Origin: Solibacillus sp. FSL R7-0668
GTDB lineage: Bacteria; Bacillota; Bacilli; Bacillales_A; Planococcaceae
DNA: 64,000 bases
Assembly (NCBI RefSeq): GCF_038006205.1
Contig: NZ_JBBOUU010000001.1
Coordinates: 994,001 to 1,058,000 of the forward strand
Direction of reading: 5' to 3'
Below, in pieces: positions 33,798-35,110 of the stretch. Below the pieces are notes generated by a model. That model saw nothing but the letters and a program-made list of their open reading frames with translations, was not told where the DNA came from and ran no database searches. The position numbers and the translations under genes were made by a program. How positions within the stretch are numbered: the first letter of the stretch is position 1; each line of letters begins with the position of its first letter.

Positions 33798-34811
33798 ATG
33801 TTACGTTCAATGTATTCAGGGATTTCAGGTATGAAAAATTTCCAAACAAAATTGGATGTTATCGGTAATAATATTGCCAATGTTAATACGTATGGTTTCA
33901 AGAAAGAGCGTACAGTTTTTAAAGATTTAATTTCACAAACACAATCAGGGGCATCTGGTCCTTCCGCTACTCGTGGTGGTGTCAACGCTATTCAAGTAGG
34001 CTTAGGTTCACAATTGGCAGCAATCGATACAATTCATACTTCTGGTTCAATGCAATCTACTGGTCGTACACTTGATTTGGGGATTTCTGGAGAGGGGTTC
34101 TTTATGGTAGCAGATTCAATTGAGGCTCCAGATGAGACAGGTGTTATCCAAAATCCAGAGTTTGGTCCTATATCTTATACACGTGCAGGAAATTTTTATA
34201 TGGATAAAAATGGATATTTGGTTAATGGAGATGGTAAATACTTAGTAGGTTATGCCAATAGTGAAATTGGTACTTATGATGCGTTAGACCCTGAAAACCC
34301 AATCCCATCAAATTTTGATGATGAAAAAGCACTAGTAGATGCAGGGGAATCATTAATTGATCCAACTACAGGCGGATTAATTGACGGCACAGCAGCAGGA
34401 GCAGGAGGAGGTACAGGTACAGGTACACCAACACCTGGTCCGATTCGTGTTCCGGTAACTGCACAATCAATGAGTATATCTAAAGATGGTACAATTTCGT
34501 TTGTAGATTCTGCAGGTAAATTACAATATGCAGGGACACTAGTATTAGCTAAATTTGCAAATGCTAGTGGTTTGGAAAAAACAGGTTCTAACTATTTCCT
34601 ACCTACACAAAACTCTGGTGATGCATATGTACAATTAGGTACTCAAGACGGTATTGGCTCAGTAAACTCAGGCTTTGTCGAAATGTCCAACGTTGACCTT
34701 TCTGAAGAGTTCACAGAGATGATCGTTGCGCAGCGTGGTTTCCAAGCAAACTCACGTATTATCACAACATCAGATGAGATATTACAAGAGCTTGTAAACT
34801 TAAAACGATAA
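33798..34811 (+). CDS. flgE: Flagellar hook protein FlgE
   Basis: Hook subunit. ATG 33798 (AAGGGAG upstream) gives MLRSMYSGISGMKNFQTKLD, the same start as B. subtilis FlgE. N-terminal signature LDVIGNNIANVNTYGFKKER, C-terminal FVEMSNVDLSEEFTEMIVAQ and ITTSDEILQELVNLKR. 337 aa against ~264 in B. subtilis: the excess is an insertion at ~155-213 ending in a Gly/Thr-rich run, followed by PIRVPVTAQSMSISKDG. A 107-bp gap precedes it, with no promoter I can defend. Confidence 0.95.
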   Translation: MLRSMYSGISGMKNFQTKLDVIGNNIANVNTYGFKKERTVFKDLISQTQSGASGPSATRGGVNAIQVGLGSQLAAIDTIHTSGSMQSTGRTLDLGISGEGFFMVADSIEAPDETGVIQNPEFGPISYTRAGNFYMDKNGYLVNGDGKYLVGYANSEIGTYDALDPENPIPSNFDDEKALVDAGESLIDPTTGGLIDGTAAGAGGGTGTGTPTPGPIRVPVTAQSMSISKDGTISFVDSAGKLQYAGTLVLAKFANASGLEKTGSNYFLPTQNSGDAYVQLGTQDGIGSVNSGFVEMSNVDLSEEFTEMIVAQRGFQANSRIITTSDEILQELVNLKR

Positions 34812-34840
34812 TCTTTTAATATCATATTAAATTCATTGTA

Positions 34841-34888
34841 AAGGGGGGTCGGGCCGGCTCTCGTGGAAGGTCCGGCCCTATTTCAATG
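34841..34888 (+). promoter_or_regulatory. Hairpin-bridged Shine-Dalgarno of swrD
   Basis: AAGGGGGG (34841-34848) is 38 nt from the swrD ATG, too far to work linearly. Between them lies a 7-bp all-GC stem GGGCCGG (34851-34857) / CCGGCCC (34872-34878). Folding it leaves 2 + 7 nt between SD and ATG, an ideal distance. The loop also contains GGAAGG. A weak terminator is the alternative, but only TATTTC follows the stem. Confidence 0.55.
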
Positions 34889-35110
34889 ATAGAAGTAACA
34901 AAGCTAAATGGTAAGGCATTTACTTTAAACGCTCTATACATAGAAACAGTCGAAGCTTTTCCTGATACAACGATTACGCTAACGACTGGGCGTAAATTCA
35001 TTGTTTTAGAAACTGAGAAACAGGTGCGACAAAAGGTGAAAGCCTTTTATCAACATATACAAATTTTATCAAACCCGCATCTAAGAGGTGAAGAAGATGA
35101 AGAACAATAA
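34886..35110 (+). CDS. swrD: FlbD-family protein SwrD (YlzI)
   Basis: 74-aa FlbD-family protein; in B. subtilis SwrD raises flagellar motor power and is needed for swarming. The family core [20 protein letters not shown] is at the N terminus, followed by [14 protein letters not shown]. No SD in the normal window; see the hairpin at 34851. It overlaps fliL by 14 nt. Confidence 0.9.

Follow-up and report, generated by a model that had tools for sequence, protein, structure and literature searches.

In the 64,000-nucleotide stretch of the Solibacillus sp. FSL R7-0668 genome considered here (the window), a gene of the FlbD/SwrD family (PF06289, E 1.5e-25) lies between flgE and fliL. SwrD raises motor power, and thereby promotes swarming, in B. 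subtilis, a finding of Hall et al. cited in passages of PMC9195833 and PMC6878767. A search for solved structural relatives of the protein found none at E <= 1. The upstream hook gene passes the NCBIfam cut-offs for both the FlgG equivalog and the FlgEFG subfamily, and no FlgE equivalog is present among the best 25 of the 26 NCBIfam matches listed; automatic annotation may therefore call it FlgG.

Read directly from 5′ to 3′, the leader of swrD comprises a strong Shine–Dalgarno (SD) sequence located 28 nt after the end of the flgE stop codon, the dinucleotide TC, a GC-rich hairpin, a short linker and the ATG (Table 1). The original prediction, made from the letters of the DNA, had placed the strong SD 38 nt from the swrD start codon: the SD is indeed there, and counting from its last G to the ATG gives 37 nt. 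It had also recognized between the two a stem of 7 bp, all GC, which is directly legible, and had computed that folding would leave 9 nt between SD and ATG, a value recovered as the sum of the flanking linkers (2 + 7). The far SD reads AAAGGGGGG in the window and AAAGGAGGG or AAGGGAGGG in most relatives; it scores -14.2 on a scale which, as well as its thresholds, was devised for this analysis. At the same locus, and again as anticipated, there is no near SD at -8.5 or better, the loop of the hairpin containing a weak near-SD match, GUGGAAGG (-8.2), that is not kept in relatives.

Table 1. Features of the swrD leader and its flanking genes (window coordinates)
Feature	Position	Strand	Basis
flgE, upstream gene	33801..34811	+	open frame; FlgEFG domains in Pfam (searched from 33804)
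Strong distant Shine-Dalgarno AAAGGGGGG	34840..34848	+	sequence; relatives
Candidate outer arm TCATTG, complement of CAATGA 34884-34889 over start codon	34833..34838	+	some genera only, weak
Bridging stem, 5′ arm GGGCCGG	34851..34857	+	compensatory changes 6/7 pairs; RNAalifold consensus
Hairpin loop, 14 nt, length and sequence variable among relatives	34858..34871	+	comparison of relatives; larger in L083
Bridging stem, 3′ arm CCGGCCC	34872..34878	+	compensatory changes; RNAalifold consensus
3′ linker TATTTCA	34879..34885	+	sequence; length 6-10 nt across 67 aligned relatives
swrD (FlbD family), 74 aa, proposed translation from bridged site (ATG at 34886)	34886..35110	+	PF06289

The hairpin stands out from its genomic background. 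The motif GGCCGG..CCGGCC has one match in the window against 0.01 expected, and the full GGGCCGG..CCGGCCC, allowing a loop of 3-25 nt, occurs at a single place in the 4.2-Mb genome, which rules out a repeat or a mobile element. The fold of the leader has a z-score of -3.88 over 119 nt and of -2.37 over 55 nt. No Rfam family matches the window at its gathering score, and the sole hit near the element is to a microRNA, below threshold and on the opposite strand. The organization of the swrD start can further be compared with that of 476 open reading frames of at least 60 aa, taken from the window and from 20 further 20-kb segments of its genome (464 kb in all). In 92 of them a near SD is lacking whichever start is considered, and six of these possess a far SD together with an intervening fold of -8 kcal/mol or better. 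One of the six is swrD, which alone among them joins a folded spacing of 9 to an SD (-14.2) and a hairpin (-17.6) that are both strong; the SD scores of the other five range from -9.5 to -10.8. The gene is the only strict split case among the 476. Within the window, a near SD scoring -8.5 or better precedes 56 of the 63 open reading frames of at least 100 aa, provided that each frame is credited with the best of its several possible starts. The only other control frame with a fairly strong hairpin (-14.6), at 6830-7282 of L366, has it after a far SD (-9.5) and ahead of a TTG start, where the terminator of the preceding gene or a wrong start is more likely.

The element is found upstream of swrD in all 16 Solibacillus genomes examined. 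We define a split locus as one where a far SD is present, a near SD is missing and a hairpin lies between SD and start. Under these rules, 119 loci of the Planococcaceae, a family with swrD matches in 235 of 261 genomes, comprise 110 split, four near and five neither. Among the named loci listed (36 of 80), those with the element belong to Lysinibacillus sphaericus, Kurthia, Sporosarcina, Psychrobacillus, Rummeliibacillus, Ureibacillus and Viridibacillus. One genus of the family, g2, gave no swrD match in any of its eight listed genomes (G016-G023), and a record titled Arthrobacter beigongshangensis (L170), with a Sporosarcina-like swrD region, is probably a mislabelled assembly.

The original prediction had proposed aligning the flgE-swrD spacer across the Planococcaceae in search of compensatory changes, and this comparison has come out in its favour. 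Our alignment of 67 sequences was limited per genus and excludes the near-SD loci, L083, all loci of genera g5 and g13 and five of the six of g12; the stems of the excluded loci do not align, and the counts that follow are valid for one stem type only. Pairing is retained in 98.3% of the stem cells, and six of the seven pairs are changed on both sides. Cells changed on both sides number 17, as against 1.7 in shuffles, and none of 500 shuffles reaches this figure. In the same alignment, registers slid by 1-3 columns are 22-68% paired, and the RNAalifold consensus is exactly the bridging stem. The clearest compensation is that of Kurthia, where GGAGTTAG/CTAACTCC, GGGGTTAG/CTAACCCC and GGACTAAG/CTTAGTCC replace GGGCCGG/CCGGCCC. 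On the other hand, no mutual compensation in length is seen between the 5′ and 3′ linkers, which counts against the bridging reading. A covariance model of the element (R1), run against 61 genomes of the family, matched 45 of them at E <= 0.1, with 42 matches below 1e-3, one in each genome; 41 of these adjoin the swrD coordinates, the 42nd (G143) having no listed coordinate. The 16 genomes devoid of a match belong to g2 (no swrD match), g4, g12 and g13, with one from g16, and the model therefore misses split loci with unrelated stems.

Folding the window sequence by itself with RNAfold gives as the minimum another register, where the G-run and the start codon are paired. This SD-burying fold is predicted to be a real energetic competitor in Solibacillus, and one might imagine a regulated switch, whereby the leader would alternate between the bridging fold and a fold hiding both SD and start codon, thereby making the production of SwrD responsive to temperature, to a protein or to ribosome traffic. 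An outer helix over the start codon, TCATTG/CAATGA, could contribute: it is present, always with both halves, in 29 of the 132 split loci of the class-wide survey presented below, from six genera (counted alone, the CAATGA half is found in 62 of the 132). In addition, a swrD/FlbD homologue is reported to be about sixfold more abundant in swarming Paenibacillus polymyxa, a figure which comes without a mechanism in the pertinent passage of PMC6878767. Yet the SD-burying register, while 86.1% paired, displays covariation that does not rise above that of shuffles, and it was rejected as the conserved fold; the outer helix, for its part, is missing in the majority of genera and, where present, may reflect common ancestry. 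Since it is the comparison of relatives, through covariation and RNAalifold, that decides, the bridging stem is preferred over the register chosen by RNAfold, and the folding-dependent switch evoked in the original prediction seems unlikely to us.

How far the bridging arrangement extends can be judged at the level of the class. Of 200 genomes sampled from the Bacilli, 144 contain a swrD of the PF06289 type, and the B. subtilis genome also contains a PF06289 match. The class loci (L226-L306, 81 in number) came from the 144 matching genomes, plus family members, 60 being chosen for spread over genera. Altogether 198 loci from 30 families, of which 119 come from the Planococcaceae and which are not independent events, were sorted into 132 split, 52 near and 14 neither. 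The split loci span 34 genera and 12 families: in the 11 families other than Planococcaceae all 22 sampled loci are split, and the other 18 families contribute 48 near loci and nine that are neither. Two of the 14 loci in the last category, L083 and L088, are split when inspected by eye, and three (L222, L225 and L223) have weaker near SDs. All four loci of family f16 (L244, L249, L253 and L270) also fall there, the swrD ATG overlapping the flgE stop codon (TGATG) and no SD being found.

At the split loci the linear distance from SD to ATG averages 37.1 nt (sd 3.5). Once the hairpin is folded, the mean over 121 distinct spacers becomes 9.2 nt (sd 2.4), with 94 of them at 8-11 nt; near-SD loci have a mean spacing of 7.0 nt (sd 2.2). 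With one locus taken per genus, the spacer hairpin exceeds its dinucleotide shuffles in stability (z < -2) in 30 genera out of 34. Between families the stem sequences are unrelated, and the layout is the same.

Natural variants provide what amounts to a set of deletions and an insertion. In genus g13, perhaps Planococcus, locus L217 reads SD-CTTAG-hairpin-AATCGAT-ATG, with the SD at 39 nt. In L213 and L214, with near-identical flanks, the hairpin is absent and the sequence becomes SD-CTTAG-CAAATCGAT-ATG, the SD standing at 14 nt; the hairpin is likewise absent from L313 and L316, where the SD is at 13 nt. Among 22 further g13 loci, sorted with a near-SD threshold of -7.5 (-8.5 for the set of 198), 11 are split and 11 near; a far SD never occurs there without a hairpin, nor does a hairpin-bridged far SD coexist with a near SD. 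Relatives that keep the distant SD in the absence of the stem, the very case singled out by the original prediction, number none in these 22 loci and none in the 198, where a far SD accompanied by neither near SD nor hairpin does not occur. The opposite change is seen in Psychrobacillus psychrodurans (L083, L143): there the loop is enlarged and the stem kept, with a linear distance of 77 nt and a folded one of 9 nt.

Hairpins exist at near-SD loci too. In L258, L259, L262, L263, L277, L288, L294 and others a hairpin lies upstream of the near SD, its 5′ arm often being SD-like (GGGGAGGA). The hairpin between flgE and swrD may therefore predate the split site, and may serve, or once have served, another role. 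It could be imagined that it acts in transcription attenuation, in processing or in mRNA stability after flgE, its position between SD and start being incidental. In 41 of the 52 near-SD loci, the sequence preceding the near SD reaches a folding energy of -10 kcal/mol or better, by a rough count made without shuffle control on partly coding sequence, and a T-run accompanies some of the hairpins (in L259 and L262, for example). The stem of the window, by contrast, is followed by TATTTC and no T-run, so that it does not qualify as an intrinsic terminator (a GC stem plus a T-run), and the terminator scan does not list it; at split loci the eight nucleotides after the stem contain 3.45 T on average. 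The weak terminator considered at the outset is accordingly disfavoured. An incidental placing would moreover leave unexplained the absence of a near SD wherever the hairpin adjoins the start, the return of a near SD upon loss of the hairpin and the folded spacing, and we regard this family of roles as quite improbable.

Translational coupling would be yet another way to account for a distant SD, which would then serve a leader mini-ORF, or ribosomes finishing flgE, with re-initiation at swrD. It is true that no more than about 10 nt separate the flgE stop codon from the far SD at most g12 and g13 loci, as well as in several other families. Yet a start codon is located 4-12 nt past the far SD in just 11 of the 121 distinct spacers, on which ground a leader ORF was rejected, and the stop codon precedes the SD by 18-41 nt in Solibacillus and 35-70 nt in Lysinibacillus (10 values listed for each), while SD, stem and linkers are kept. 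Coupling of this kind is very improbable.

The strong far SD, the lack of a conserved near SD, the compensated stem, the canonical folded spacing, the loss of the hairpin in company with a near SD and the tolerated loop insertion together lead us to read the leader, as the original prediction did, as an SD bridged by RNA structure. Comparison of sequences makes it very probable that swrD is preceded by a split ribosome binding site similar to those of T4 genes 25 and 38. In such a setup the 30S subunit would pair with the strong SD 37 nt upstream of the ATG; the GC hairpin would stay folded, removing about 28 nt from the path; the ATG would thereby come to about 9 nt from the SD, and initiation of swrD would take place there. 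Ribosomes would thus initiate across a folded hairpin, and this bridged initiation would set the rate of SwrD synthesis. A point against this reading is the modelled cost of opening the SD core in the window, 9.0 kcal/mol, to be set against an SD pairing of -14.2 on our own score, as well as the predicted pairing of the start codon; over 22 hand-picked loci the predicted openness of the SD core ranges from 0.02 to 0.81, and is poor in several genera. We may further speculate, as a rather doubtful extension, that the bridge doubles as a gate, a hairpin closed or open under the influence of a factor, of temperature or of ribosome traffic setting translation, which would amount to a conserved control of motor power in Bacilli; the Solibacillus-Ureibacillus group would have supplemented it with the outer helix that covers the start codon.

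The open-access literature searched yielded no mention of a split site at swrD. The natural deletions, the insertion and the compensatory changes suggest that an RNA-bridged ribosome binding site can persist for long in a chromosomal gene while the sequence of its stem is replaced. As a practical consequence, swrD would be misjudged, in the 12 families where the arrangement was observed, by predictors of starts or of expression that rely on the linear distance of the SD. The natural variants of the gene, which differ in stem type, loop size and spacing, constitute a ready set for testing how a hairpin is accommodated by the 30S subunit in the interval from SD to P site.

Where does this place swrD among the split sites already described? 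In E. coli thrS the hairpin is upstream of the SD, and in swrD it lies between SD and start codon. The split site of T4 gene 25 is reportedly the 'accommodated' ribosome binding site of Nivinskas (1999) and of Malys and Nivinskas (2009). For thrS, a passage of PMC3936740 states that the ribosome accommodates the long hairpin without unfolding it, which is akin to what we propose; unlike in swrD, the essential second part of the thrS site is, according to the same passage, a single-stranded upstream region. The resemblance with phage T4 is closer. In genes 25 and 38, according to the relevant section of PMC3014915, an over-long SD-AUG spacing is shortened by structure (27 to 11 nt in gene 25, 22 to 5 nt in gene 38), and mutations destabilizing the structure reduce initiation; gene 38 had been the precedent cited in the original prediction, rightly so. 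As in both genes, the structure of swrD lies between SD and AUG and would bring a long spacing to a working distance. Gene 38, however, is a phage gene and, in that section, a single case, and gene 25 is said there to be kept only among close T-even phages, whereas swrD is chromosomal and its site extends over 12 families; its spacing of 37 nt, or at most 77, would fall to about 9, against 27 to 11 for gene 25, with a stem sequence replaced between families. Those features of the T4 type that can be looked for in a sequence are all present at swrD: a far SD without a near SD, an RNA structure separating this SD from the start, and a distance of 9 nt upon folding, within the T4 working range of 5-11 nt.
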